DNA of 64,000 nt from Methanomassiliicoccales archaeon (GCA_004377185.1 SOIM01000037.1:1-64000); one strand, 5' to 3'; counted from the stretch's first letter, positions 4,739-48,926 are shown. The notes: generated by a model from the letters alone, not told the origin. Numbers and translations are program-made.

Positions 4739-5635
4739 TCACTCCGACCGATTTTCCAACTCTTTGACAATGGCCACCAATGTTGAATTCACTGGTGTGG
4801 GAATCCCTCTCTCTTCCCCAAGCTTGGAGATCGCTCCGCATATCGAGTCTATCTCCGTTCTCTTGCCATTCTCGATGTCTTGCAGCATGCTAGATTTGTT
4901 CCCCGCAGTCAGTCTGGCTACCTCTTTCGTCATGGATATGGCGTCTTCTATGTCGATTTCAATTCCATGCGCATTTGCGACCAAGACTCCTTCCCTGCAG
5001 ACTTCCTCGAGGTCCTGCTCGAGTTTTTCATCTTCCAGAAGAACCCCGTTCTTGCACCTAGCAATGGCCGTGATGGGGTTTATCCCTGCGTTCACGATCA
5101 CCTTCTTCCAGATCTCTTTTCTTATGTCATCCGAGGCCTGTGTTTCTATTCCAGATTCGTTGAACATCTTGACAATATCCGATACTCTATCTTCGGCTCC
5201 AGTGTAGTTCCCCAGAATGGTATCTCCGACTCCCGCGTGATATATCCTCCCCGGTCCTTCAAGGGTGACCCCATGGCTGGTGACACCTCCGATAACCTTG
5301 GACGCGAAACCAGAGATTATCTCCTCATTGCCCAAACCGTTCTGCAAGGTGAGAAAGACTGACTTGTCATAGAAAGCGTCCAGCGCTCTCATCGCTTCTT
5401 CGGTGTTGTAGGACTTCGTAGTTACTATTATGAGCTCGGGGTCTTCACTGCCATCCAGTTCTTCCTTTGTGTGTGGATGCACCACCACCTCCGTCACTCC
5501 TGTTATTCTCAGTCCTGCTTCCCGTACCGCTTTCAAATGTTGCTCCCTGCCCACCAAGGTCACATCATTCTTCTGCGACAGCAGGCCACCCACCAAGCTT
5601 CCCAACGCCCCTGCTCCGAATACGATTACTCTCAC
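4739..5635 (-). CDS. panE: 2-dehydropantoate 2-reductase
   Basis: MRVIVFGAGALGSLVGG Rossmann start, LTLQNGLGNEE, KVIVNAGINPITAI. Confidence 0.93.
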   Translation of the reverse strand: MRVIVFGAGALGSLVGGLLSQKNDVTLVGREQHLKAVREAGLRITGVTEVVVHPHTKEELDGSEDPELIIVTTKSYNTEEAMRALDAFYDKSVFLTLQNGLGNEEIISGFASKVIGGVTSHGVTLEGPGRIYHAGVGDTILGNYTGAEDRVSDIVKMFNESGIETQASDDIRKEIWKKVIVNAGINPITAIARCKNGVLLEDEKLEQDLEEVCREGVLVANAHGIEIDIEDAISMTKEVARLTAGNKSSMLQDIENGKRTEIDSICGAISKLGEERGIPTPVNSTLVAIVKELENRSE

Positions 5636-5679
5636 AGCCAGAAGATTGGGTATGTCATATAAAAAGTTCCTTTTCGGGT

Positions 5680-6612
5680 CTATCCCGTGCGTTTGTTCCT
5701 GAGCTCGGTCGCCATTCTGTGCGCTCTTCTCGTAGGTTCAGGAATCCGATGGAAACAAAGTTTCCTGGACAAATCAAGCGCGCTCTTCATCGAAATCATG
5801 TGTCCAGGGGAAACAAACACGTACCGATCCGATTTGGAGGACTTGAGAGCCATTCCCAGGACACAACCCTCATGGATGATACTGGAAAAATCGCCTATCT
5901 TCTTCGGGGTCTTCCCCAACTTGCCCAATAGAAGTCTCTTTGTCACGCCGATCGTGGGTACATTGAGCTCCAGGCCAGCGTGGGACGCAATCCCTATCCT
6001 CCTCGGATGCAGAATACCGTTCCCGTCAATCATCAGTACGTCCGGTTTTGTCTTAAGTCTCTTGAATATCTTCTTTATCATGGGGAGCTCTCTGTAAGAG
6101 AGGTATGTGCTCACATAGGGGAAGGTCACCTTCCCGCTCAACCTCCTCTCCTCCACGAGCTTCATTTTCTCAACATCTAGAATCACGCAAGCAGCAAAAG
6201 CAGAGTCACCCTTGTAGGCAACGTCTATTCCACCGACCGTCCTGACCCTCTTGAAACCATCCTCCAAAGACACCTTGGAAGCAAGCTCCTCCTGCTTTTC
6301 TCTCAACTTCGCCAGGATGCGTTCTGATTTGAAGTCCTTGAATAGGTGATCCTTGAGATTCCTCACCTTTCTGTTCTCTACCGGCACACCTTCCTCTTTC
6401 AGCATCTGGAGGTATCTGGACAATGCGGCCTCGCCTCTCGAAGTGACAACGCGATGTATGGGTAGCCCTCCGTCCCATTCTTCTTGGAGAAGGCTGTAGA
6501 TGGTTCTTGAGGCGACCACATCGCCTATCGCCCTCGCGATATCACCGTAGGTTGAGACCATCCCCTCCGGGATTTGTTCCACCATAGCGGAAAGCTCTTT
6601 CCTGAATCTCAC
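5680..6612 (-). CDS. nfi: Fusion of O6-alkylguanine transferase-like (ATL) domain and endonuclease V
   Basis: N-terminal VEQIPEGMVSTYGDIARAIG...LPIHRVVTSRGE (AGT fold, PCHR replaced by PIHR); C-terminal VGGIDVAYKGD, DVLMIDGNGILHPRRIGIASHAGLELNVPTIGVTK (Endo V). Confidence 0.93.
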   Translation of the reverse strand: MRFRKELSAMVEQIPEGMVSTYGDIARAIGDVVASRTIYSLLQEEWDGGLPIHRVVTSRGEAALSRYLQMLKEEGVPVENRKVRNLKDHLFKDFKSERILAKLREKQEELASKVSLEDGFKRVRTVGGIDVAYKGDSAFAACVILDVEKMKLVEERRLSGKVTFPYVSTYLSYRELPMIKKIFKRLKTKPDVLMIDGNGILHPRRIGIASHAGLELNVPTIGVTKRLLLGKLGKTPKKIGDFSSIIHEGCVLGMALKSSKSDRYVFVSPGHMISMKSALDLSRKLCFHRIPEPTRRAHRMATELRNKRTG

Positions 6613-33509: not shown

Positions 33510-33547
33510 CCCAAAGAATCTTATAAGCATTGGAGAATCAGCACTAC

Positions 33548-34165
33548 ATGGACAATCTCGAAGAAATCGCAAAGGAAATCCAGGCCAATCTTGATGAGAA
33601 GGATGAAATAAGAGAGGTTGCGCTGAAGTCTTCGAGAGCAATTCTGAGGCTATCTGGATCGGCACTCAGACAAATGCAGAAGGGAGAAGACGAGTCGGAG
33701 AACCTCCAGGCCGCCAGGAACGAAGCCCATCGACTGACCGGGGTCTTGGAAGGACATCCTGATATCTACTATTCAGGTTTTGTCGAGAATGCCTTCCAGG
33801 AGCTCACCGAGGCACACGTCCTTCGAAATATCCTGAGGGGAGAACGGATCCGGGACCCGAAGGAGGTCGGCGTTCATCCAATTGCGTACCTCTTGGGTCT
33901 GGGTGATGTCGTTGGAGAACTGAGGAGGCTCGCCCTGAATTCTCTCATTAACGGCGGGGTGAAGAAGGCCAAGGACTGCCTGGAGAAGATGGAGACGATC
34001 TACGATATTCTCATCCGTTTCGACTATCCAAGTGCATTGGTGCCCATCAGGAGAAAACAGGACATTGCCAGGAGTCTGATAGAGAAAACCCGTGGCGAGA
34101 TTGCCGTTGCTTCCACAAGCAGTGCCCTTGAGGCGAAAATAGGAAACCTGGAGAAGAAGATCTGA
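33548..34165 (+). CDS. Translin family protein
   Basis: DEIREVALKSSRAILRLSGSALRQ...YLLGLGDVVGELRRLALNSLINGGVKKAKDCLEKMETIYDILIRFDYPSALVP. Confidence 0.85.
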   Translation: MDNLEEIAKEIQANLDEKDEIREVALKSSRAILRLSGSALRQMQKGEDESENLQAARNEAHRLTGVLEGHPDIYYSGFVENAFQELTEAHVLRNILRGERIRDPKEVGVHPIAYLLGLGDVVGELRRLALNSLINGGVKKAKDCLEKMETIYDILIRFDYPSALVPIRRKQDIARSLIEKTRGEIAVASTSSALEAKIGNLEKKI

Positions 34166-34919: not shown

Positions 34920-35189
34920 CTAATCACCGGCAAAAACGAGACAAACAAAATAAAACTATCTTTAGAAACTGAGAACTGCTTTCAATTCTGATAATATCCG
35001 TTTATTCGATTTCGTGAGAGCCAGTAATACATTTACCAAATACACCATAGTTTTTTCCTTTCTACTCTGGACGGTTCCTTTACCAATCAGACCATATTAT
35101 CATTTTTCTGTTCCATTTTTGATATTCAGGTCGAAATCTAGTTAAATCAAATCAGGAAATCAATTCCGTTAAATTCACGAGGATTTCAC

Positions 35190-36131
35190 ATGGCAAATCG
35201 AGGTTCTGTTGGCGGGAGGAATGAACAAGACTCGTCCTCTTCGAGCGAATTCCCGAAGGACGAGAACGCGTACGGAGGTTTTGCCGAAGCCATATCCGCC
35301 CTCGAGAAGCTGAACCGTCTGGAATCCGACATCGCCACCATAATATCTGCGTGCAAGGTCCCCATCAAGGAAATCAAGAAGTTCTTCAGATGTACGACCC
35401 CTGACCAGGCTTCCAACGTCTCCATGTTCCAATACATGAGAGCGCTTTTCATGCAATTCGGCATAGATTTGGAGATATCGAGCATCGAACCATATTGCTA
35501 TTCTTTTACTGTGAGGAGTTCGGCAGTGTCTGACCTATACTCGGGCACCCGAGGTCGCACGTGCGATATAGTCGGTGAGGCAATATCCAGGTTCTTCCAG
35601 CGAGAGCTCAACCTTGACTGTCATGTCAAAGAGATTAGATGTGTGAATGCGGAGAATGGATGTTGTGAGTTTGAGGCAACGATAGACAGGGAAGACTTCT
35701 GTAGGGTGACTCTGGGAGATGCAGAAAGGGAGATACTGAGAACATTGATGCAATCCCACGGTCAGGATGATCTTCAAGGTGTCTCTTCCGACAGGATGGA
35801 CGAAGAACTGGAATTTCGAATAGCACTGCTCAAGAAGTGGGACCTCGTTGGTGAGGATGGGAAGGTGACCGAGCTTGGCATCAAGTGCACCACCCAGAGC
35901 CTGGAAGAGAACGATTTCGAACCACCATGGAGGGGGATGAGCGAACTGTCATCGGCCATTTCGAGCGCTCTGTCATTCGCCGAGGCCGGTCGAGTCTCGC
36001 TCTCCGATGATTCCCCCAATGACGATCAAACCGGCAAGATCTCTGACCTGAAAGAGGTCAGGGAGTGCAGAAGCTTTGCCGAGTTGCTGGCAAAGCAAGT
36101 CAACAAAGAATCCAAAAAGGAGGGATTCTGA
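35190..36131 (+). CDS. V4R-like sensor domain with C-terminal winged helix
   Basis: CDIVGEAISRFFQRELNLDCHVKEIRCVNAENGCCEFEA (V4R-like) then LGDAEREILRTLMQ...LLKKWDLVGEDGKVTELG (wHTH-like). Confidence 0.6.
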   Translation: MANRGSVGGRNEQDSSSSSEFPKDENAYGGFAEAISALEKLNRLESDIATIISACKVPIKEIKKFFRCTTPDQASNVSMFQYMRALFMQFGIDLEISSIEPYCYSFTVRSSAVSDLYSGTRGRTCDIVGEAISRFFQRELNLDCHVKEIRCVNAENGCCEFEATIDREDFCRVTLGDAEREILRTLMQSHGQDDLQGVSSDRMDEELEFRIALLKKWDLVGEDGKVTELGIKCTTQSLEENDFEPPWRGMSELSSAISSALSFAEAGRVSLSDDSPNDDQTGKISDLKEVRECRSFAELLAKQVNKESKKEGF

Positions 36132-36132
36132 A

Positions 36133-37005
36133 ATGAACAGGATAGAAACCGGAATATTTGGGCTCGATCAATTGATCGAGGGCGGATTGAACGAAAAGAG
36201 CACCATTGTGATAGTGGGCTCTAGCGGAACAGGAAAAACCACATTCGGAGTACAGTTCCTCTTGCATGGCATTGAGAACGGTGAGCAAGGTCTCTTCGTA
36301 ACACTCGAAGAATCGCCAGAACAAATAATGCGCCAAGCGGAGACAATTGGTTTGGACATGAGGAAGCACTATGAGAAGAACCTGTTCTTCATACATCTAA
36401 AAGGGAAGAACTTCAAGAAGATGATCGAAGAGCAGCTTCCACAGCTAGTCAAGGCCAGAAGCGACTACGACATCAGCACCAGGGTGGTAATCGATCCAAT
36501 AACCCCCGTCCTTTGGGCGACCGAGGACAAACTTGAGCAGAGGGAGCTCATCGGAAGGCTCTTCTACACGTTGAGGGAACTCGGAGTTGTCGTTTCGACC
36601 GTGGAGGAGCACACCAAGCCTGGCGAGGCGGTGGGAGAAGACGTGCTTCTTCCGATATACCTTGCGGACGGAGCTCTGCATCTGGAGTACTACCCCATCG
36701 GAGGAGCCTTCAACCGAACTCTCAAGGTTGTGAAGATGAGAGGGACCCACCACGGCGAGGGCGTGTATCCATACATGTTCATCCGAGGCTTGGGAGTGGT
36801 TGTTAGGGCATCCGCTACCGAAGTCACCCGCGAGCAGGGCGGGGACTACAGCGAAGTCTTTGACAAGGCAATAAAGACGGCCGAATCGAGCCAAGCACCC
36901 AAGCAGTTGTGCGGGAAGATAAAGAAGATGAAGGAATCCTGGGACTACGACTATTCCCCTGAAGAGGCTCTGCACATAGTCTTCGATTCATGCAAAATCA
37001 AGTAG
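36133..37005 (+). CDS. KaiC-like RecA-superfamily ATPase
   Basis: ETGIFGLDQLIEGGLNEKSTIVIVGSSGTGKTTFGVQFLLHG, LFVTLEESPEQI, RVVIDPITPV. Confidence 0.92.
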   Translation: MNRIETGIFGLDQLIEGGLNEKSTIVIVGSSGTGKTTFGVQFLLHGIENGEQGLFVTLEESPEQIMRQAETIGLDMRKHYEKNLFFIHLKGKNFKKMIEEQLPQLVKARSDYDISTRVVIDPITPVLWATEDKLEQRELIGRLFYTLRELGVVVSTVEEHTKPGEAVGEDVLLPIYLADGALHLEYYPIGGAFNRTLKVVKMRGTHHGEGVYPYMFIRGLGVVVRASATEVTREQGGDYSEVFDKAIKTAESSQAPKQLCGKIKKMKESWDYDYSPEEALHIVFDSCKIK

Positions 37006-37016
37006 AGTGTGCACCC

Positions 37017-37808
37017 ATGACAGACCCGAAGAAGGATATCGACAAGCGGATGGAAGCCGGAACGGCCACCATGCTCAAGCACATGCTGGACCTGGAACTT
37101 AGGAAGGTCAAGGATGAGAATGGCATTGACGCGGTCATGTTCATGGGTGTGGACGGCCGGATGTTCTCCTCGGATATCCCTGTTGACCTTACTCCTCCGC
37201 AGTACAGGCTCTTGAACTTGGTGAAGTCACATCTTCCTCACATCTGCGGCCAGTTGAGCGCGGAGAACCTGCAGATATCCGTCCAGTACTACGAGGGTGG
37301 TACAATCATCATTTCAGGGGTGGGTCCGAACGCGTTTCTCATCTTCTTACTGACCAAGAAGATAGAGTTCAATGATATGGAGAAGATGCTCGCCAACGTG
37401 GAGGATGCCAGTGTCGTCATGAGGCATCTCTTCGAGCTGAGACCTCACTCCCCTGAAATCCTGTCAACCTACAGCGAGAAGGTCGCTGCAGAGCTCACTG
37501 ACCTATCAAGGCGACTGTTCGTGGAACGGTTCGAGGAAACACCGGGGTACAAGAAGAACATGGAGATACTGAACTTCGTCAAGAAGAAGATAAAACAAAC
37601 AGTGGGTGTGGGAGCCGTTGATGAAGTTGTGACCTTCTCTTTTAACGAGCTTGGTACATCCGCGGCCTATATGAATGACGACCTCTGGCTGAAGTTTATG
37701 GAGAACGTGATACACCACATTGAGGAAATGAGCGGAGACATGGTCGCCCAGGATTTCGCATCCACTTCGTTGCCTGAGATTCAGAAGAAGCTCAAATCAT
37801 TTGTGTGA
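37017..37808 (+). CDS. Roadblock/LC7-like domain protein with helical C-terminus
   Basis: LELRKVKDENGIDAVMFMGVDGRMFSSDIP...ISVQYYEGGTIIISGVGPNAFLIFLL pattern; weak family match. Confidence 0.5.
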   Translation: MTDPKKDIDKRMEAGTATMLKHMLDLELRKVKDENGIDAVMFMGVDGRMFSSDIPVDLTPPQYRLLNLVKSHLPHICGQLSAENLQISVQYYEGGTIIISGVGPNAFLIFLLTKKIEFNDMEKMLANVEDASVVMRHLFELRPHSPEILSTYSEKVAAELTDLSRRLFVERFEETPGYKKNMEILNFVKKKIKQTVGVGAVDEVVTFSFNELGTSAAYMNDDLWLKFMENVIHHIEEMSGDMVAQDFASTSLPEIQKKLKSFV

Positions 37809-37817
37809 GGCTCGGTG

Positions 37818-39548
37818 ATGGTTGATGAGAAACGGGTTGTGGAAGATCGGAGGGATGTAGCTCAAGCTCGCTGTCAGTATTGTGGCCGGACGTTCAAATC
37901 TCCCCGAGGAAGAAGCATTCATGAACGGGCTTGCAAGAAGAGAGAGTCGACCACTTCCCGTGAGGATGTCGTGGGAGAAGGCGTTCCAGAGCATGTATCA
38001 TCGGCAGTGACTTCTGCGTCGGGGGCCGAGGTCGTGGACATCGTCGAGGAGCTCACGGTCCCCATTCCTGCTGATCAAGAAGGGGGCCTCAAGGTTGACT
38101 TCCGGATGCCTGAAGCAAGCTATGTGTCTGATGCTTCAGCCGAGATAAAGCAACTCATCTCTCAGATGGAAAAGGAGAGGAAGAAGTGGGAAGAAGAGCG
38201 AAAGAGATTCATGGAACAGACCGAAGCCCTTGTGGTTGAAGAGGAACGCTATCCGACCACCGAGATTTCCGAGCCCCGGTCTCTGAGGGAACTGGACGTT
38301 GAGGATGTCAAGCTCTTTGAGATGAAAGTAGCAGGGGAATTGGATGAGATGAGGGCCCAGCTCCGGAAGAAAGCGGACGCGGAAATGACGAGGGAACTGC
38401 TCGAAATGAAGGAGGACGTGGCGACACAACTCGATTACCTGGATGATAATGTTGCCACGCTGACCACGGTACTGAGCGAATTCAGTGCACGTACTCTGGA
38501 CGACCTAGCGGTCTTGAGGAAGAACCTCAAGGTGAAAGCAGACGAGGGTGATTTGGATTCTGTGAAGAAAAAGATCCGAAGGATGAATACGAAACTTGAA
38601 GGGGTCTTGGAAGAGGTTGGCTACCGAGAAAGTCTAGATATATCAAAGATTCCTCCCGGAATACTGGAGCTTGTGTACCAGACTACTCTGGATGATATTG
38701 CCAGGGCCTTGAACAAGACGCTTGGACATTCGGATGCTGAGAAGACGATTTTGGGTGTGTTAGAGGAGGTTAGGCTGAAGACCAGTGGTAGCGAACTCTT
38801 CCGGTATCAGTCTCCTAGGTTCGAAATCAAAGGTATGGCTTCCTCAATGGAAAAGGGTTTGATATCGGCCAAGCAGGTGCAAATGACCTACGAAGAACTT
38901 GTCAAGAAGATGTTGGAACACATACCTAGACACACGCCCAAGAACTTCCGGGCGCTGATCAAGGTCAAGAGCCAGGAATTTGCAGTTGACAGAAGCAACA
39001 GGCTGGGAAAAGAACTGAGAAACATAAGCCAGGATGTTCAGTCTCTTCAGGGGTCACTGTCAGAAGTCTCTCAGAATGTGTCGGTAGAGGTATCGCGGTT
39101 GAGTTCACAGCTGAAGGACATCAGAAGGGAACTGGAGAAGGCAATCTCAGATAGCAAGGTCGAGGTTTCCGTCGGCGCATCGGAACCCAAGGATGAGGGT
39201 CAGTCACTGAGTAGGGAGGAAAGGATCGTTCAGGCGAGATTCCAACATGACGTGAATGGACATGAGGCGGATCCCACAAGCCAGTTGCAAGAGGAGGATG
39301 ACTCTGGGGCAATATCTTACAATGAAATCGAAGGTGTCGTTCTTTCTTCAATCCCAGAAGAGGGTGTCAGCTTCACCAAACTGAAGAAGAAATTGAGTCC
39401 CGCCTTTCCTGGAATGGACGTTCAGTCCGTTCTTGATTCGTTATTCCAAAGAGGCCTGACTGAGAAGAGGCCAAGAGGAAAAGGATTCATCTATTACGCC
39501 AAAGAAGAGGCAGAAAAAGAAGAAGGGAGTGGCCCCGAAAATGAGTGA
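37818..39548 (+). CDS. C2H2-type Zn-finger / long coiled-coil protein with C-terminal wHTH-like region
   Basis: CQYCGRTFKSPRGRSIHERACKKR at N-terminus; long heptad-rich centre; C-terminal VLSSIPEEGVSFTKLKKKLSPAFPGMDVQSVLDSLFQRGLTEKRPRGKGFIYY. Confidence 0.7.
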   Translation: MVDEKRVVEDRRDVAQARCQYCGRTFKSPRGRSIHERACKKRESTTSREDVVGEGVPEHVSSAVTSASGAEVVDIVEELTVPIPADQEGGLKVDFRMPEASYVSDASAEIKQLISQMEKERKKWEEERKRFMEQTEALVVEEERYPTTEISEPRSLRELDVEDVKLFEMKVAGELDEMRAQLRKKADAEMTRELLEMKEDVATQLDYLDDNVATLTTVLSEFSARTLDDLAVLRKNLKVKADEGDLDSVKKKIRRMNTKLEGVLEEVGYRESLDISKIPPGILELVYQTTLDDIARALNKTLGHSDAEKTILGVLEEVRLKTSGSELFRYQSPRFEIKGMASSMEKGLISAKQVQMTYEELVKKMLEHIPRHTPKNFRALIKVKSQEFAVDRSNRLGKELRNISQDVQSLQGSLSEVSQNVSVEVSRLSSQLKDIRRELEKAISDSKVEVSVGASEPKDEGQSLSREERIVQARFQHDVNGHEADPTSQLQEEDDSGAISYNEIEGVVLSSIPEEGVSFTKLKKKLSPAFPGMDVQSVLDSLFQRGLTEKRPRGKGFIYYAKEEAEKEEGSGPENE

Positions 39549-39789
39549 AGAAGAATCAGGGAGAGGTTCCGAGAAGAAAGGCATAGAGGACCTCTCCCGG
39601 ACCGAATTGCTGGTCTACGGAATCCTAACAGAGGAAGGATTCACCTTGGAGAGAATAGGAAAGGAGGTTGGGGACAAGGCCAGCTACACTGAGGTTCTGG
39701 ACGCGCTCAAGGTGCTGCTTGACAGTGAACTCGTGTCCGTCACCATGCATGGTAGACACACGATTTACCAAAGGGTTGAAGAATACTAG
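39541..39789 (+). CDS. Small winged-helix protein
   Basis: LSRTELLVYGILTEEGFTLERIGKEVGDKASYTEVLDALKVLLDSELVSVTMHGRHTIYQRV; overlaps preceding stop. Confidence 0.65.
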   Translation: MSEEESGRGSEKKGIEDLSRTELLVYGILTEEGFTLERIGKEVGDKASYTEVLDALKVLLDSELVSVTMHGRHTIYQRVEEY

Positions 39790-39801
39790 GAGGTGAAAGA
39801 A

Positions 39802-40422
39802 ATGCTTGACGTAGCATTGGTGTCGCTCATCCAAGACATGAGCGACAAGGCTGGAGTGGAAGGCACAATAGAGTATTGGACGCGTGTCGGAGAGAACATG
39901 GCCAAAAGGTTAGGAAAAGAGGCGTACGTGGGCTGGCCGTCCTTTAATGTTGCCCTGCGAGAAGGGAGAACTGGATTCTCCATCGAGGGCGATGTCACTG
40001 CCCTGACCGATCTAGCAATAACGGACGTGGACGGGGACGTGGTTGGCTATCTGTACGCGCTCAAGCAGTGTTGCTTCGTGCCGACGATCATGAGAACGAG
40101 GCTGAGCGTTGGGGCCCTTCCGAGCGCAGACAGGGCGGTCGCGGAGGAGTACAACAACAGTGTCCACGATATCGCAGTGTGCAACTTCTGCGTTATCCAC
40201 GAGAAATTCAGGCAAGAGGCCTCGAAGAACATCACTGTCGGAGGCCAGGTACTGGACTGTCTAATGCTCGCAACAAGGGGCTTCACGGGAGAGACGAAGA
40301 TCTCCGAGGACAATCTCAAGAAGATTGGAATGAACCCCGAGTACGTGAGAAGCCTTCTGAGAAACTACGACTGCGTGTACGCGGTCCTTATGAAAGGCGC
40401 GAGACTTGTGAAGGAGGATTGA
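39802..40422 (+). CDS. Uncharacterised Cys-containing protein, paralogue A
   Basis: AEEYNNSVHDIAVCNFCVIHEKFRQEASKNITVGG; SD aggaggtg upstream. Confidence 0.75.
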   Translation: MLDVALVSLIQDMSDKAGVEGTIEYWTRVGENMAKRLGKEAYVGWPSFNVALREGRTGFSIEGDVTALTDLAITDVDGDVVGYLYALKQCCFVPTIMRTRLSVGALPSADRAVAEEYNNSVHDIAVCNFCVIHEKFRQEASKNITVGGQVLDCLMLATRGFTGETKISEDNLKKIGMNPEYVRSLLRNYDCVYAVLMKGARLVKED

Positions 40423-40424
40423 AA

Positions 40425-41039
40425 ATGTCCGAAGTAAGAGAAGAATTGACGGAAAGCAATCCATTCGTTGATGTGGCGACCCATCTGTTCCTGGAGGACA
40501 TAGCGGACAAGCAGGGCGCGGCCGGTCTCAACAACTACCTGATGAGCCTGGCTACATCGCTGGCAAAAAGCATGCCGGCGGAGGAGTATGATACCTGGGA
40601 AGATTTCCTGGATGCCCTTAGAAACCGCCAGTCCATACTGTCGGCGTTCGAAGTGGTCACCACACCCACCGATAACTGCGTGGTCAATCCGGTCTGCCCC
40701 TTCGCTCGAGGCTGGCTGGAATACACAAAGAGAATAGGCACTTTCTCCAAGATACATAGCGAGGTCGCGGAGTACTACAACTCGACCGTGAAGGCGGGTG
40801 CAATCAACTCCATGTGCATAATCCATCAGACCTTCAGAAGAGCTGCTGCCGATCGCATTTGTATCGCAGGAAAACAATTGCGTGTGGCACAGACGGCAGC
40901 CATCTGGAGCGACGGTGAGAAGAAGGTAGTGCCAGCAGAATGGCAGCCTATAATTCTGGAGAGGGCGGGCATCACCGAAACGGACCTCAATATGATTATG
41001 AGGAACAACGCCTGCGTTTGGGTTGTCTATACCGACTAA
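40425..41039 (+). CDS. Uncharacterised Cys-containing protein, paralogue B
   Basis: AEYYNSTVKAGAINSMCIIHQTFRRAAADRICIAGK aligns with paralogue A; extra NPVCPFARGW. Confidence 0.75.
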   Translation: MSEVREELTESNPFVDVATHLFLEDIADKQGAAGLNNYLMSLATSLAKSMPAEEYDTWEDFLDALRNRQSILSAFEVVTTPTDNCVVNPVCPFARGWLEYTKRIGTFSKIHSEVAEYYNSTVKAGAINSMCIIHQTFRRAAADRICIAGKQLRVAQTAAIWSDGEKKVVPAEWQPIILERAGITETDLNMIMRNNACVWVVYTD

Positions 41040-41085
41040 GGCCTAACAACAGCTGGTTTGCCGGTTCAAAGGCAGATGTGATTCA

Positions 41086-41631
41086 TTGAGAGAACTGTGG
41101 AAAGACAACAACTATTCCTATTTGAAGCTGGAGGAGGCCAAAGAGGTCGACAACTTCCTGATAGAAGGGATCGAGGACGAGGAGAGCGGGTTCGACTTCT
41201 TCAAGGGACTTGGAATTGTCGGATACTCTTCCACGTTCAAGGCGTGGCTCAGGAAATTCCCAAGACCGATCTTTCTTGTTGCTGTCAAAGACAAGAGGCT
41301 CGTGTCATGGATGTATGTGGAGGAATGGGAAGAACCGGCGAATGACGGATTCCCAGTCTATGTTCTCCGGGCTGTTGAGACCCTTCCTGGGTTAAGGGGG
41401 AAGAGGATCGGGCTCAGACTGTTTCTGCTGATGTTGAAGCAGACTGCTGGTTATGTGATTACCAAACCTATCACACCCGAAGCAAGGCGTTTCTTCGAAA
41501 AACTCGGCTTCAAGGACGAAACTGAGATGCATAATCCACCTATCGACTTGTCCCACAGGTCCAGCTATCTCGTGTTTCCGGTATACAAAAGACGGGAGGT
41601 CCTCGAGGATTTTGAGGGATACTTGTCCTGA
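41086..41631 (+). CDS. GNAT-like N-acetyltransferase
   Basis: ETLPGLRGKRIGLRLFLLMLKQTAGYVITKPITPEARRFFEKLGFKDE. Confidence 0.8.
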   Translation: MRELWKDNNYSYLKLEEAKEVDNFLIEGIEDEESGFDFFKGLGIVGYSSTFKAWLRKFPRPIFLVAVKDKRLVSWMYVEEWEEPANDGFPVYVLRAVETLPGLRGKRIGLRLFLLMLKQTAGYVITKPITPEARRFFEKLGFKDETEMHNPPIDLSHRSSYLVFPVYKRREVLEDFEGYLS

Positions 41632-41634
41632 ACA

Positions 41635-42414
41635 CTATCTCCTTCTTCTTTTCCTTCGGATGGTGGAGGGAAGCAATATCAGAATCACCAATATAAGAAT
41701 GACAACAATGGCGATGACTAGTATGCCTGGGTCGCCTCTTGGGCTGTAGAAATCCCCGATCACCAAAGTATCACCCATAGTCTTCTCAATCTTTCCGTCG
41801 CCATCGAGATCTATCTCAATTGTAATAGTGTGTCTTCCGGGCGATACGTCTTTGGTAATCCACTTCAGGCTGGCCGTTCCCTCGCTGAAGGGAGATATCT
41901 CATCTATGGTTGAGCCTCCTACGAACTCGCCATCCACAAGGAAACTGACCAAGACGTTCTTGAGGGTCGAGTTTGACGGATTGGATACCGTCGCCCTCAA
42001 GTTTATGGGGTTCACTACATAGATGTCGAAGGTTTCAACGGTCATTACTGTCTCGTTCCCTTTGTGGGAGAATGCCTCGATGTTCAACACCATACGCTGG
42101 GCGATCGGAGGGGCCGAGACATTGATCTGGAATATGTTACTATCTTGGGTTTCGTTAAATCTGTCCGCAAGTATCGGACTGGCTTCGGACACGTTCGCCC
42201 CCGTCAGATGCGCTCCCACCTGCCATTTACCACTATCCTCGGCTGGTCCGCCGACCACCGTCACGTTGTAGGCAGCCTTCTTCCCGACCTCCAAGGCCTC
42301 AGGTCCGATTACGAAGACCCTCACTTCAGAATCCTGTGCGACCGCCTCCTGGAAAAGTGGGACTGCGGAGATGAGCATCAGAACAGCAACTAGTGGGGCC
42401 AGTAACTTCCTCAT
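41635..42414 (-). CDS. Secreted/membrane-anchored CARDB-like domain protein
   Basis: N-terminal signal peptide, INLRATVSNPSNSTLKNVLVSFLVDGEFVGGSTIDEISPFSEGTASLKW (CARDB-like), C-terminal TM + RRKRRRR. Confidence 0.8.
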   Translation of the reverse strand: MRKLLAPLVAVLMLISAVPLFQEAVAQDSEVRVFVIGPEALEVGKKAAYNVTVVGGPAEDSGKWQVGAHLTGANVSEASPILADRFNETQDSNIFQINVSAPPIAQRMVLNIEAFSHKGNETVMTVETFDIYVVNPINLRATVSNPSNSTLKNVLVSFLVDGEFVGGSTIDEISPFSEGTASLKWITKDVSPGRHTITIEIDLDGDGKIEKTMGDTLVIGDFYSPRGDPGILVIAIVVILILVILILLPSTIRRKRRRR

Positions 42415-45400
42415 CGTCCTCTCCTCTCTCTCCTGCCTCTGAGCACCCTGTACGCTATCATCAGCAACAGGACCAACCCAAGGGCCACAATCACATACAA
42501 GTACGCATCCACTTCCTCCGTCAGGGACATGTCCCTTCCTGAAACGACTATATTGGGCACTTCCAGACTGAAAGTCGGCAGAAAGGCCGGTACACCCAGT
42601 ATGTCATCCACAGTTCTGTCATCGTTCTCGTAGCACAGTATAATCGCCCGACTCGATGGTGCTGTTCCCACGATGGTGAACCTGAGCGTCATCTTCAGAG
42701 TGGAGTTTCCATCCACCTCGACCGCCTCGAGGGTGTCCGAATACGTCTTGCGCACGGGATCCTGCATGTCAGCCATCCATCCATCTGACGACAGCTCATC
42801 GCCGTTGACTATGCTTAGGTAGAATTCCTCCTTGCTGTTCCCTAGGTTCTTCAGTTCAATCTCATACACGATATGAGTGCCATCGTATGTGGCTGGCAAG
42901 GTGGTCAGCACTAGATCCATTCCCCTGATCTTCTCTATGTCCACTTGAAGAACAACACTGTCTGTGGTCGCACTGCTATTCTCTGAGCGGACCACTGCAT
43001 GGAGGGGGCCATGGTCGACGGAAGCGTTTGCTGGAGTGTTTATCCTCACCTGCACTGAGGCGGTGTCTCCTACCGTCCCGTAGTCCAAGACGACCTTCGA
43101 TGGTGTGAAAGTATATTCCCAGTCATCGGACGGACCCGTCCCTTCCAGTGTGAAGGCATCTTCGACGTTTCCCTCATTCGTGACCGTTATTGTGTATACC
43201 ACGGATTGGCCCTGAGCGATCTCCTCCTTCTGGCCTGAATCCCATTCAACGGATACCAGCCTCTTCAATGTCTTTGTGAGCTGAAGATTCACCGCGGACA
43301 CGTCCTCAATCAGAACAGTCTTCGAGGCTTCGTACATGACCCCCGCACCCTTCTCCTCAACGGACGTGCTAGCCTCCACAAGGTACCCACCTGGTGGGAG
43401 ATAGAGCTCGTAGCGCCCCAACTCGTCCGTCTTCAACTCCACCGATCCGTTGGCGGTGAATTTCACGTCCGAGACCTGTCTCTCGTTGTCTCTGAAGGTG
43501 ACAACTCCCGAGACTCGGTGCCCCGCCAGCAGTGGTATGTCGTATTCATTCTCGCTGTAGGGTGCAATTGTGGTCTCACCCAGGAAGGTGTAATGTCCCA
43601 ACATCCTGTGGACGTAGATTGTATAATCGCCTGGCATGACCTCCACCGAGTAGTTACCTGTGGAATCTGAATAGACCGTCACGTTCTGCGCGGACAGGCT
43701 TCTCGCTATGAACTGGACCTGGACAGATGTTCCCACTCCACCTATGGAGACCCATCCAGAGATTGTGGAGTTCTCGAACGTCTTCTCGATCTGAATGTCG
43801 AAGACAACCGTAGATTCTCCTTGGTCTATGTGAAGGTTTGAATCGTGCGTGTATCTCACATATCTTGTGGTGCCTGCTTCCGATTCGGTCGTGCTGTGGT
43901 CCACATGCACCACATAATCTCCCCAAAGCAGATGTCCCTCGTATCTACCTGAGGATTCCGTCCTGAAGGTGACGGAACCGCCAACAGTCCTTTGGAATGT
44001 TATGTCCAGAGACTCCCGGACTATGGAGCCCTTGTATCTCAGAAGGCCTGTTACCCTTGTTGATTCTTCGAACTGCAAGTCGAGAATGGTGCCGCCCGCC
44101 ACCTGGAAACCCTCAATGAACGAATACTCATCCCCATCGAATTCCTCGGTCGAGGAAGCGGTATATTCACCTAGAGCCAGGAAGACCTCGAATTCACCGT
44201 CAGAGACGTTCAAGGTCAATACATCGGGTCCCACGATATCCACCAGTGCGCTTGCGGCTTCGCCCTCCAATTCGACCGTTCCTTGGACAAGCCCTCTCTT
44301 CACCACATCCAAATCATGGGCCAGGTCGTCCTGATCAATTATCAGTTGAATCTCATCTACCGTTCTGTTCTGGTATCTCAGGTCCCCCGAGAGCGATATG
44401 TTCTGATCGATCACTACGCGATAGCCTCCCGGCCTCAGGTTAACTGAGTAGGCGCCATTGGAGCTCCTCGTCCTGGTGCTGATGGACCCGTTGCTAATTG
44501 ACCGGAACTCAATATCCACATTATCTTCAATCAGGGGCATTTCATCCAATATGAGTGTTCCTGAAACTGTGATGTTTTTTGGTGTGACAGAGAAGTTGAG
44601 TTCTTCCCTCAAATCTTCAATCGGGGATAAGGGCCTGCTTACATCCTCGAAACCTCTGGCACTCACCAAGAGAGAATATTCACCGTCTGGTAGAAGTTGT
44701 GCCTGGTACGCTCCCTCAAAACCCGTCAGGAAGACGAGTGTCCTCCCTTCCTCATCTGTGTAGCTGAGAACAACATCCGCTAGACCCTCCTCCACATCTC
44801 TTTCGCCAGAATCGTCCATGTCATAATAGACAAAGCCAGCCATCTTCTCTGCCTCTTCGAGTGTTATTTCATGTTCCATGTTAACGTTCAAAACCACAAG
44901 AGATGCGTACACCTCGCCCTCACTGAACGCGCTAATCTTGTAGCTTCCGATGGGTAGCACAGCACTATACTCGCCGTACTTGTTCGTCTCAGCGTTGAAG
45001 GTCCCACTCTCACCCTCGAAGTACACTCTGACTCTTGCGAGAGGCTGTCCCCTGCTCAACGCAGTCCCACTCAACACCGCTGAGGGCGTCATGAGGATGT
45101 CCAAGGGCGTGTCTTTGCCTTGTTTCACATATCTGGACCCGACATATGCAGACCTTTGTCCATCCGAATCGTAGACCGAGTAGACGTTGTAGATCCCTTC
45201 TTTGAGCGATACCGAGAACCTACCTGAACCATCAGAATAGACCAATCTATCTTTCGGGTCCAGCGACTGCGATTTGAACTCGATGAGGGTGTAGGGGGCA
45301 ATCTTGGCACCAACCACTGTTCGGCCTGAGACAGTTCCAGTGGGGACCAGTGTGATGTTTAGAGTTTCGTTCTTGCCCATGGAAAGTACCACTCTCATGG

Positions 45401-48400
45401 GGAGGCTCGATTCGTCCCCTGTCTTGATTTCCAACGTCATTTCGCCAGAAAGCAGATTCTCAAGAGCGAAGCTCCCATTTGAATCGGAATTGGATGTGAT
45501 CGTGGTGTCATTTGTGCTGTCATACAACTGAACGCTCGCGTTCTGTGCTGACTCGCCCTTGTGGGTGCGGACGGTGCCTGTTATGGATGTTGCCGTGACG
45601 TTGATATCTCTCTCAAGGACCTCATCCCTTTCCACCGTCTGTGCCTCCAGTCCTATCAGTCTCTCTTCAGTTTCAAGAGTCACTTCGTAATCACCCGGAA
45701 AAGCACCTTCCAGATTGTAGCTGCCGTTCTCATCCGTGGTGACCTGCCAGATCTCGTCCACATCTGTGTGGTTGAATGTCAATTGCGCATTCGGGAAGAC
45801 AATCTCATCTTCGTCATATACGGTGTTGTAGTTCCTGTCAAGATACACAGTGCCCGTCAGGGAACCGCCCGAGACGTCTATGTCCTTCGTTATGATGTAA
45901 TCCAAGATTCCATCCCTGTCCGCGTCGATGTTCCTTCTCATTGCCTGGTCCTCGGTCACGTTGAATTTCACAATATCAAGTTCGGTTGCGCCAAGATTGG
46001 TGAGGTCCTGCAACTTTCCTACTGAGACCTGAAGTTCGATTTCTCCCCATGGAGCCAGAGCGCTGTATCTTCCCTCGGAATCCGTTCTTGTGAGATAATG
46101 GACCGTCTGTAGTTCGTCCCTTATCGTGATCCAAGCGCCCGAAAGTGGTGAAACACCATCCACAAGCACAGTGCCGTTGACGTAGGCCCCATCATAGTAT
46201 TTCAGTATCACGACTCCGTTGTACAAAGTCGACCTGGCGCTGGCGTCCACCACGCCTTCCATCTCCCCCGCGTTTATCTTCTGTTGTATGTCAATCGCGT
46301 CCTCAAAGTTGATGGCTGTCCAAGCTTCCGTATGATTTGCCAGCTCGTTCTGCGGATATGGGTTGAAATAGGCTGTCCTGTAGGCAACTCTGAAGTGGGT
46401 CATGTTCCAGCTCTGTATAGGTTGGTACTGCTCATATTCGCCGCTCAGGCCCGGAATCCACACGTTATCCTTCCCCAGGTCCTCTCCGCTGTAGCCCACG
46501 AACGCCTCGTATAGCATGCTTTTCCAGAACATGTCCTGATACTCGATCCTCACGTTACTGGTCGTTGCACCTATTGGAACCTCGTGTGGGGCGAACTCAC
46601 CCATGTTGGTCTCGGCAACGAGCTTGAAGAAGTCTATGGGCTGGTTCTGGACCATTCGATGGTCCGACAGCTTGGCAGGGGCATAGAAGATCCCGGTCTG
46701 TTGTCCCGAGAAGGGGAACAGTCGCGAATCGATCGCAAAATAAAGGATGCTCTTGCCTGTGACCTGCCTTATGTCGTGGTAGAAGTCCGCCATCTTGTTT
46801 ACGTCCAGATGGCTGATGAAGTGAACCCGCAGGGCGATGTACATGGCATTCTGAATATCCATCTGGCTGTCGCGGGGGCTGTATTTGTCTGGATCTGCAA
46901 GTATGGCCGGGATGTAGTTCCCCGGGTTCTTGAGTATGTCCTCAACCTTCTCGTACTCCATTCCATATCTGGTGATGATGTCTCTCACACCATCGCTCAG
47001 CCTTTTGCTTCCTCCGTTCGTGATGTAATCGCCTTCAATCAGCCTCGATATCAGAAGCGCTATGGCATCGTTCTCACCTTGCGCCATGATGAAGTTTCCA
47101 GCCAGCTGGTATCCGTTCAGGAAGTTGTCGGCAACGGTCGGATGCTTGCCCGCATTCACCGCCTCGAAACCGTAGTCCCACCAACTGAGGAAGGCTGGTC
47201 TGTCGGCCACGGGCAGTGTGTCCGCATCCTGTTCAGCAAGCCAATCCCAAGCGGCAGGCCAGTACCGTGTCTTCAGAGGTAGCGAGTATCCGAACGCCCC
47301 AAGGAAGAAGTTCCTTCCTTCCACGAGCCCAGCAGGTTCCAAAAAGTCTGGGAGCATGTCCGCGATGGCTTGGTCGTACTTCCTCTTCTCTTCGAAAGGC
47401 ATTCCCGCATCAACACCGTACCAGATGTTGGGAAGCAGGATCAGCCCAGTGATGAAGAGAGCCCCAACCACATGCCTCAGTTTTATGCTCTTCCTTATTG
47501 CATAGAGTTTGTTGCCCCTCCGTTCATCATACGACTTCTTAATACTCCGGAAGTCGAGCTTGTCAACTATGATTATGAGTGCCCATCCAGCCGTCATGGC
47601 GATGGCCGGAGCCGCATTGAACATGAACCTAGCGGCGGACAGGGCCATGAATATCGAGGCGCCGCTCCAAATGACCAGGAACAGATAGAAAGGCTCCAGT
47701 CTCTTCGGGATTTGAATGAAGAAATACGCTAAGGCGGCTAATGATAAATAGAAAGAGACGGCTCCGAACGCGAGAGCCATCTGGCTGAAGTTCGGGGCCT
47801 GCGCTTCCGCGATTGTTTCATATGTTTTGGTTCTCACGAAATAGCCAGCACCGCTTATGAAGCTCTGGGCGACCGCGGGATTGATGATGGCCAGTATTGC
47901 GAAGGATATCCCAAACGTCACGAACACAGCCGGGATCACCAATGCCCACGGAAGGTCCCTCGTGAAGGTGAAGATTGCGCCCAGGGCCACTGCAGCAAGA
48001 AACAGTATCATTGGCGCGTCAAACCAGGTCCGCACAAACCCGTAAGAATGGTACCACGGGAAGGAAACAAGAAGAGCAACGCCCACCGTTATTGTGAAGC
48101 AGATCAGGATGCCCATCGGGTCTTTGTTCCTGAGCCTGCCTACCAGAAGCTGGAAGCCGAAGTACACCAGGATGATGATAATTATGTAGGCAAAACCCTT
48201 CCAGGCCAGGGCTATCGCTGCAATGGAGAACGCTGACATCATCGAATAGAGAACTGATTTCTTGTTGTTGGCGAAGAAGTCCCTTAAACCGCCCTTGATG
48301 CTGCCCCATTTCTTCCAGCGGGTGACCCATTTCTTGTCCTCCAGCAGTTGGAGAGCTCTCAGAAAGAAGAAGAAGGCCGTGACTGCGAAGAACAGGGCGT

Positions 48401-48926
48401 ACGCGTCATGGTCCGCGTTCGAGAACGGACTACGTTGTATGTGTGCCGGCATTATTGCCAGGAGGAATGCGGCCGCCATTCCTGCCCTTCGTCCAAATGC
48501 CTCCTTGGTCAGGAAGAAGAGGGGGAATATGGTCAGGCTGCCCCAAACCGCAGTTGAGAACAGGAAGGAGAGCCAAACGGAAACATCAACGCTGGGTGCC
48601 AGTGGGGAGAAGACTATGCCTATCACCGCGACCGACCAGTCATACAATGGCGGTCTGCCCGCCCTCAATCCTATCGGATATCCCAGAAGCGGATCATGGA
48701 CCAGGTGTTTGCCGTTCTCCACAACATAATCGATTATCCTCTTGTGATAGTACGAGTCCGAACCGCCAGATACCAGAAAAGCAGGGTCCGTTGCAAGAGC
48801 GTATCCGAAGTAGGTCCTGAGAAACATGGCAACTGCGAAAATCCCAATGAGAATACTCAGAGTAGTCCAGTTCTTGCTGAACCATGCTCTTGCCTCATCT
48901 ATCGTACTAGATGCCATGTTTCGCAC
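42411..48926 (-). CDS. aglB: STT3/AglB-like oligosaccharyltransferase with giant carboxypeptidase-regulatory-like/NEW3-like repeat extension and C-terminal TM
   Basis: N-terminal multi-TM STT3 core, SNADHDAY and SWWDYGFEAVNAG motifs; then many GxVxxxGxPLxxAxVxxxxxxGSYxxxLxPGxYxV-type repeats; VTNEGNVEDAFTLEG domain; terminal TM. Confidence 0.9.
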   Translation of the reverse strand: MRNMASSTIDEARAWFSKNWTTLSILIGIFAVAMFLRTYFGYALATDPAFLVSGGSDSYYHKRIIDYVVENGKHLVHDPLLGYPIGLRAGRPPLYDWSVAVIGIVFSPLAPSVDVSVWLSFLFSTAVWGSLTIFPLFFLTKEAFGRRAGMAAAFLLAIMPAHIQRSPFSNADHDAYALFFAVTAFFFFLRALQLLEDKKWVTRWKKWGSIKGGLRDFFANNKKSVLYSMMSAFSIAAIALAWKGFAYIIIIILVYFGFQLLVGRLRNKDPMGILICFTITVGVALLVSFPWYHSYGFVRTWFDAPMILFLAAVALGAIFTFTRDLPWALVIPAVFVTFGISFAILAIINPAVAQSFISGAGYFVRTKTYETIAEAQAPNFSQMALAFGAVSFYLSLAALAYFFIQIPKRLEPFYLFLVIWSGASIFMALSAARFMFNAAPAIAMTAGWALIIIVDKLDFRSIKKSYDERRGNKLYAIRKSIKLRHVVGALFITGLILLPNIWYGVDAGMPFEEKRKYDQAIADMLPDFLEPAGLVEGRNFFLGAFGYSLPLKTRYWPAAWDWLAEQDADTLPVADRPAFLSWWDYGFEAVNAGKHPTVADNFLNGYQLAGNFIMAQGENDAIALLISRLIEGDYITNGGSKRLSDGVRDIITRYGMEYEKVEDILKNPGNYIPAILADPDKYSPRDSQMDIQNAMYIALRVHFISHLDVNKMADFYHDIRQVTGKSILYFAIDSRLFPFSGQQTGIFYAPAKLSDHRMVQNQPIDFFKLVAETNMGEFAPHEVPIGATTSNVRIEYQDMFWKSMLYEAFVGYSGEDLGKDNVWIPGLSGEYEQYQPIQSWNMTHFRVAYRTAYFNPYPQNELANHTEAWTAINFEDAIDIQQKINAGEMEGVVDASARSTLYNGVVILKYYDGAYVNGTVLVDGVSPLSGAWITIRDELQTVHYLTRTDSEGRYSALAPWGEIELQVSVGKLQDLTNLGATELDIVKFNVTEDQAMRRNIDADRDGILDYIITKDIDVSGGSLTGTVYLDRNYNTVYDEDEIVFPNAQLTFNHTDVDEIWQVTTDENGSYNLEGAFPGDYEVTLETEERLIGLEAQTVERDEVLERDINVTATSITGTVRTHKGESAQNASVQLYDSTNDTTITSNSDSNGSFALENLLSGEMTLEIKTGDESSLPMRVVLSMGKNETLNITLVPTGTVSGRTVVGAKIAPYTLIEFKSQSLDPKDRLVYSDGSGRFSVSLKEGIYNVYSVYDSDGQRSAYVGSRYVKQGKDTPLDILMTPSAVLSGTALSRGQPLARVRVYFEGESGTFNAETNKYGEYSAVLPIGSYKISAFSEGEVYASLVVLNVNMEHEITLEEAEKMAGFVYYDMDDSGERDVEEGLADVVLSYTDEEGRTLVFLTGFEGAYQAQLLPDGEYSLLVSARGFEDVSRPLSPIEDLREELNFSVTPKNITVSGTLILDEMPLIEDNVDIEFRSISNGSISTRTRSSNGAYSVNLRPGGYRVVIDQNISLSGDLRYQNRTVDEIQLIIDQDDLAHDLDVVKRGLVQGTVELEGEAASALVDIVGPDVLTLNVSDGEFEVFLALGEYTASSTEEFDGDEYSFIEGFQVAGGTILDLQFEESTRVTGLLRYKGSIVRESLDITFQRTVGGSVTFRTESSGRYEGHLLWGDYVVHVDHSTTESEAGTTRYVRYTHDSNLHIDQGESTVVFDIQIEKTFENSTISGWVSIGGVGTSVQVQFIARSLSAQNVTVYSDSTGNYSVEVMPGDYTIYVHRMLGHYTFLGETTIAPYSENEYDIPLLAGHRVSGVVTFRDNERQVSDVKFTANGSVELKTDELGRYELYLPPGGYLVEASTSVEEKGAGVMYEASKTVLIEDVSAVNLQLTKTLKRLVSVEWDSGQKEEIAQGQSVVYTITVTNEGNVEDAFTLEGTGPSDDWEYTFTPSKVVLDYGTVGDTASVQVRINTPANASVDHGPLHAVVRSENSSATTDSVVLQVDIEKIRGMDLVLTTLPATYDGTHIVYEIELKNLGNSKEEFYLSIVNGDELSSDGWMADMQDPVRKTYSDTLEAVEVDGNSTLKMTLRFTIVGTAPSSRAIILCYENDDRTVDDILGVPAFLPTFSLEVPNIVVSGRDMSLTEEVDAYLYVIVALGLVLLLMIAYRVLRGRRERRGR

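Follow-up and report, generated by a model that had tools for sequence, protein, structure and literature searches.

What is the function of a compact run of eight genes on the + strand, at positions 35190-41631 of a 64,000-nucleotide stretch of DNA from a Methanomassiliicoccales archaeon (GCA_004377185.1 SOIM01000037.1:1-64000; hereafter the window)? Named A to H in their order along the strand, the genes include those of a V4R-domain protein (A), a KaiC-like ATPase (B), a protein with a predicted roadblock fold (C) and two paralogues, F and G, that appear to form a new protein family. We propose that this operon is a KaiC-centred signal-transduction hub with a transcriptional output, a reading to which we give an even chance. 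It builds on the conservation of the gene order, on a core of four genes and on the co-occurrence of C and F in genomes where the two are unlinked.

Gene order, co-occurrence and the four-gene core

In a census of 300 Thermoplasmata genomes, F was found in 65, nearly always with G. The operon is conserved across many families. Among the loci with enough sequence, the order A-B-C-D-(E)-F-G-H on one strand was kept in 19 others. In 4 more loci, from families f4 and f6, the same site, flanked by the translin-family gene and the AglB region, carried B-C-F-G alone. A gene order recurring in 19 and 4 loci is therefore far beyond chance, and synteny in related genomes, on which an original prediction made from the sequence of the window had staked its proposal, was kept. 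When six of the bare-core genomes were searched, D was not found elsewhere in any of the six, and A gave only short V4R-region matches in two. Because the f4 and f6 loci carry only B-C-F-G and D was not found elsewhere in them, the irreducible core of the module is B-C-F-G.

In the samples of the class, 62 genomes contained both C and F. The only C without F was in G095, a genome that is 61% complete, and the F-side matches without a listed C came from a 1.8-kilobase contig (G123), an F cut at a contig end (G187) and a fragment (G051). In a sample spanning the phylum, F was also present in one genome (G629) from outside the class. GTDB species genomes were scanned with F as the query, which reaches close relatives only; the matches were Thermoplasmatota-type genomes, members of the Methanosarcinaceae and a single contig filed under a cyanobacterium. 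C was present once in each of the 18 F-bearing Methanosarcinaceae genomes tested. Of 249 Halobacteriota genomes, 15 had a full-length C, and these 15 and no others had a full-length F, at loci that are mostly separate and that lie about 0.14 to 1 megabase apart in one-contig examples (G339, G307). This co-occurrence of unlinked genes, in genomes that appear to be one family, is the strongest evidence of a functional link between C and F. It also bears on the explanation that the operon is a conserved neighbourhood only, in which unrelated functions were co-inherited at the purD-translin-AglB locus. The position of the locus is indeed kept between families, but the perfect co-occurrence of C and F in Methanosarcinaceae, though they are mostly unlinked there, argues against this explanation, which we regard as very improbable.

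The eight co-directional open reading frames (ORFs) of the original prediction, separated by small gaps or overlapping, are all present where it had placed them, with gaps of at most 46 base pairs (bp). A and B are separated by 1 bp, B and C by 11 bp, and C and D by 6-9 bp; D and E overlap; further downstream, the gaps are 3-12 bp (E/F), 2 bp (F/G) and 46 bp (G/H), the last being the largest. Based on ribosome-binding sites and conservation, the starts of B, C, D, E and G were revised to 36133, 37017, 37818, 39541 and ATG 40425, respectively. The start of F is most likely ATG 39802, as judged from a GGAGGTG six bases upstream; residue numbers of F are counted from GTG 39793. An AT-rich intergenic stretch (34992-35189), wholly containing no ORF of at least 60 residues, separates the operon from divergent genes upstream, one of which is of the HVO_A0114 type, and is presumed to hold the promoter. 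A translin-family gene (33530-34165, +) lies just upstream and, with purD, adjoins the module even in the families that carry only B-C-F-G (L086, L089). On the other side, a convergent gene for a secreted protein ends 3 bp past H, and beyond it lies a giant gene (42411-48926, -) that encodes, as read from its sequence, an AglB-like oligosaccharyltransferase of 2171 residues whose long tail consists of repeated domains.

Domains and conserved residues of the encoded proteins

B (36133-37005), a core gene, encodes a single-domain KaiC-like ATPase matching PF06745 at 3.9e-47, above the cut-off. The Walker A motif of the GSSGTGK[T/S]T type, E59-E60 and the Walker B residue D121 are invariant in 18 sequences from two phyla. 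By its domain and its intact catalytic motifs, the assignment of B as a KaiC-type ATPase holds, in agreement with the KaiC-like ATPase with an intact P-loop that had been predicted. A circadian KaiC of the cyanobacterial, two-domain type was considered and rejected, as B has a single domain and scores 86-129 bits against NCBIfam equivalog cut-offs of 408 and 546.

C (37017-37808), also a core gene, had been called roadblock-like. The fold was supported by structure prediction, but the sequence gave no Pfam roadblock match in any of 22 members, nor was any Pfam family common to the 22 relatives. The AlphaFold model of C, with a predicted local distance difference test score (pLDDT) of 83, follows the order alpha-beta-beta-alpha-beta-beta-beta-alpha, as roadblock domains do. 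A Foldseek search with this model gave MK-D1 Roadblock3 as the best match, at 1.5e-5, probability 1.0 and a target-normalised template modelling (TM) score of about 0.7, together with MglB (2e-5) and a Thor roadblock protein. On these models, the assignment of the N-terminal half of C to the roadblock/LC7 fold holds; about 110 residues C-terminal to it form a helical domain. Other Halobacteriota (L126, L127, L128) have separate proteins of about 120-180 residues that match C in its roadblock half only. At L037, the aligned stretch of the C gene (5392-6129) contains an in-frame stop, so that this copy is broken, frameshifted or mis-assembled.

A (35190-36131) contains a V4R domain (residues ~110-164) and a C-terminal winged helix, as had been predicted for the first gene. 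The window copy alone scored weakly against Pfam V4R (0.012), and the domain was matched in 17 of 17 relatives at E≤0.1, with a best value of 1.1e-9. A winged-helix match of the HTH_24/AsnC type was found in four relatives. C125, E148, C151 and C159 are invariant among 19 sequences from two phyla. The zinc ligands of DmpR are Cys151, Cys177 and Cys185 (PMC7264223), and their spacing of 26 and 8 is the same as that of C125, C151 and C159 in A, whereas the glutamate lies three residues before the middle cysteine in A and five in the DmpR paper (PMC7264223). When the PDB was searched by sequence for A and F, the one V4R chain found was MJ1460, matched weakly by A.

F (39802-40422) and the adjoining G (40425-41039) complete the core. 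They had been described as two divergent cysteine-containing paralogues. The paralogy was confirmed by profile comparison (99.8%, 5e-28), and C93, C133 and C194 of F, together with H136, are invariant, but the cysteines of G are not strictly conserved. Intact copies of F share 64-97% identity across the class and about 49-56% with those of Methanosarcinaceae; the alignment of F contains 38 relatives at 49-96% identity, and that of G contains 37. No Pfam family was found above noise for F (39 members) or G (38 members), and F and G thus appear to be a new protein family, undescribed in the searchable literature. The contig filed under the cyanobacterium, a Leptolyngbyaceae metagenome-assembled genome (L038, JAIMBL010000099.1), carries an archaeal F-G-H run with an F of 77% identity, most likely a contamination of that assembly.

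The AlphaFold model of F is of low confidence (pLDDT 60). Its leading Foldseek matches were TRAPPC3/Bet3, followed by the sensor domains of PoxR, MopR and DmpR, at E≥4.5e-3 and a TM score of about 0.3. V4R and Bet3 are homologous (PMC2253512), and we take a fold of F in the V4R/TRAPP/H-NOX superfamily as a lead from modelling, not as a result. The profile comparison of F with A was negative, but this comparison fails to detect the published V4R-MetOD1 relation as well and is hence underpowered. According to PMC5847659, V4R, ATC hydrolase and MetOD1 form a related group in which MetOD1 may have ATC-hydrolase-like activity. A MetOD1 or ATC hydrolase identity of F or G was rejected, since none of the 39 F members and no G member matched in Pfam and the F-MetOD1 profile comparison was negative.

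The conservation of F raises the alternative that F, with G, is an enzyme such as a thiol-dependent hydrolase or transferase, with A-B-C-D doing no more than regulating this enzyme or its pathway. Of the proteins, F shows the highest conservation (its identity to L037 is 83%, that of B 70% and that of C 47%), and it has many invariant polar residues in addition to the three cysteines and the histidine; the activity suggested for MetOD1 would also fit. However, no enzyme family was matched by the 39 F sequences, the operon lacks a conserved metabolic gene, and in Methanosarcinaceae F-G stand within a chemotaxis operon. We therefore consider an enzymatic F rather unlikely.

D (37818-39548) was predicted as a protein of 577 residues with a C2H2 finger, coiled coils and a winged helix. 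The coiled coils and the C-terminal winged helix were borne out, the latter by a Penicillinase_R winged-helix match of 5e-7 in relatives, but in an 18-sequence alignment the N-terminal zinc finger is C2HC-like and missing from many relatives, and the coiled coils are variable. The conserved part is a central domain of about 140 residues (KIPPxILE..TSGSELF..PKNFRAMIKxKSQE). E (39541-39789) is a small protein with a second winged helix, as had been expected; in several relatives the two are fused, with E making up the end of the D protein, and the matches lie within the D frame. The last gene, H (41086-41631), is a GNAT acetyltransferase, again as predicted (PF00583, 1.5e-4, above the cut-off). 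It has conserved neighbours in both groups, namely G in Thermoplasmata and, nearby, A and D in Methanosarcinaceae. An anti-phage defence system was rejected, as a PADLOC search revealed only similarity in the P-loop region of B, and so was a phage origin of C, D, F and G, which gave no PHROG match.

Chemotaxis and archaellum genes and the proposed hub

In Methanosarcinaceae, F-G end a che operon in 23 of 23 loci, and the che linkage was found in that family only. By their Pfam matches, the genes before F-G encode CheY, CheB, CheA, CheC, CheR and CheD. In Methanolobus (L042 2963-5083), the che operon also contains, between the CheC and CheR genes, a gene for a 706-residue protein that reads as FtsA-like, and this protein recurs in many related loci. 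A second locus groups a CheF-like gene, A, an Lsm-like gene, B, C and D with an H-type GNAT in each of nine fetched loci, and archaellin-like ORFs were seen by sequence inspection upstream of the A-B-C-D locus in L138 (G303). The Lsm-like gene in the A/B interval encodes a small Lsm14/Scd6-like Sm-domain protein (L108 7892-8299, E=2.6e-4), which is absent from the Thermoplasmata operon. In Methanosalsum natronophilum (L039), a single run combines B-C-D, the che genes and F-G. A second phylum thus has counterparts of A, B, C, D, F, G and H. The four-gene core, the occurrence in Methanosarcinaceae and the wiring to che and archaellum genes there had been missed by the original prediction. This setting suggests what the module controls in Methanosarcinaceae.

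At several Methanosarcinaceae loci, a deacetylase homologue (L108 4205-5281) lies upstream, directly beside the H-type GNAT near A-B-C-D, which suggests a paired acetylase and deacetylase. The window contains a histone-deacetylase-family region (651-1529, +), 34 kilobases from the operon.

A KaiC-centred hub with transcriptional output might work as follows. Established by the sequence data are the gene content and order, the conservation, the co-occurrence, the catalytic motifs and the domains of A, B, C and H; we infer the ligand, the direction of the signal, the physical complexes and the DNA binding. The V4R domain of A, and probably an F:G heterodimer too, would sense a small hydrophobic, metal or redox signal, which would set the nucleotide or oligomer state of B. 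C would be the adaptor joining B to F:G, while DNA binding and the output would fall to D and to the winged helices in A and E, and H would modify a component. The hub would be plumbed into archaellum and chemotaxis genes in Methanosarcinaceae and into another output in most Thermoplasmata. The circuit of the original prediction, running from ligand or redox sensing through an ATPase to transcription, is still a proposal, and it is strengthened by the near-perfect co-occurrence of C and F even when unlinked.

Several observations weigh against this hub. In two families the core lacks A, D and H as neighbours, and therefore a transcriptional output is not universal. The CheF-like assignment in Methanosarcinaceae is weak (E=0.003). 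CheW was found in 36 of the 300 class genomes, only 3 of them with F where about 8 would be expected by chance, and archaellin above the cut-off in 53, only 6 of them with F (about 11 expected). Chemotaxis or the archaellum as the general function was rejected on these censuses, which show no association with F in Thermoplasmata, and the motility link is therefore lineage-specific. A module that regulates archaella and chemotaxis, kept in Thermoplasmata for swimming or for related type IV pili, would still account for the linkage to che and archaellin-like genes in Methanosarcinaceae, and links to archaellum and type IV pilus loci are known for other families of KaiC (PMC4858521). But the window genome has no CheW or archaellin match, and most F-bearing Thermoplasmata are without both. 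We consider a general motility function unlikely, and the proposed KaiC-centred hub probably serves outputs that differ between lineages.

Comparison with known systems

A resembles the aromatic-sensing V4R regulators PoxR, MopR and DmpR (PMC7264223) in its V4R domain and in the cysteine spacing of the zinc site. Unlike these regulators, A is fused to a winged helix instead of an AAA+ activator and is encoded in a KaiC operon. The N-terminal half of C shares its predicted fold with MglB, Ragulator and the Asgard roadblock proteins (PMC10933270), but the operon lacks a small GTPase, so that the KaiC ATPase would be the P-loop partner, and C has the extra helical domain.

The TRAPP complex, in which Bet3/V4R-fold and longin-fold subunits act on Rab (PMC2253512, PMC10933270), resembles the module in having a paralogous pair comparable to F and G, next to a roadblock protein and a P-loop NTPase in the module. 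For F and G, this likeness rests on the leading fold matches to TRAPPC3 and V4R sensors, obtained with the low-confidence model of F. Unlike TRAPP, the operon encodes no GTPase, and a roadblock protein takes the place of longin. It is conceivable but quite unlikely that a Bet3/V4R-fold F:G heterodimer and the roadblock protein C act on the RecA-fold protein B as TRAPP acts on its Rab GTPase. If so, the V4R-plus-roadblock platform of eukaryotic trafficking would have a counterpart in archaeal signalling beyond the Asgard lineage.

KaiC-REC fusions are restricted to six Methanosarcinaceae genera, according to PMC5847659. Five of the six (Methanolobus, Methanosalsum, Methanococcoides, Methanohalobium and Methanomethylovorans) are among the genera where F-G were found. 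Unlike these fusions, B at L039, where the locus was read, has a low-complexity tail and no REC domain.

The closest precedent is the proposal that archaeal KaiC-like ATPases are signal-transduction hubs (Makarova, Galperin and Koonin 2017, cited as reference 41 in PMC5847659). PMC5847659, in its passages on these domains, does not describe the present system. No description of the roadblock-helical protein C, the D central domain or the F/G pair was found in the searchable literature, which does not include the 2017 paper, so that a partial prior notice is possible. The system was predicted to be undescribed; this appears to be so for its composition and for F and G, but not for the idea of archaeal KaiC hubs, which is published. 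The module thus appears to be a variant of that proposal with a new composition and a new F/G family. KaiC-like ATPases are a main proposed archaeal signalling hub, but few have known partners. In this module, B, C, F and G are a defined minimal set with strong evidence of working together, and F represents a very conserved family without annotation. Together with the link to che genes and archaella in cultured methanogens (Methanolobus, Methanosalsum), this makes the role of a KaiC hub testable by genetics and biochemistry. Like the hubs proposed for archaea, as cited in PMC5847659, the module comprises a KaiC-family ATPase with intact motifs that is encoded together with sensory and adaptor domains.

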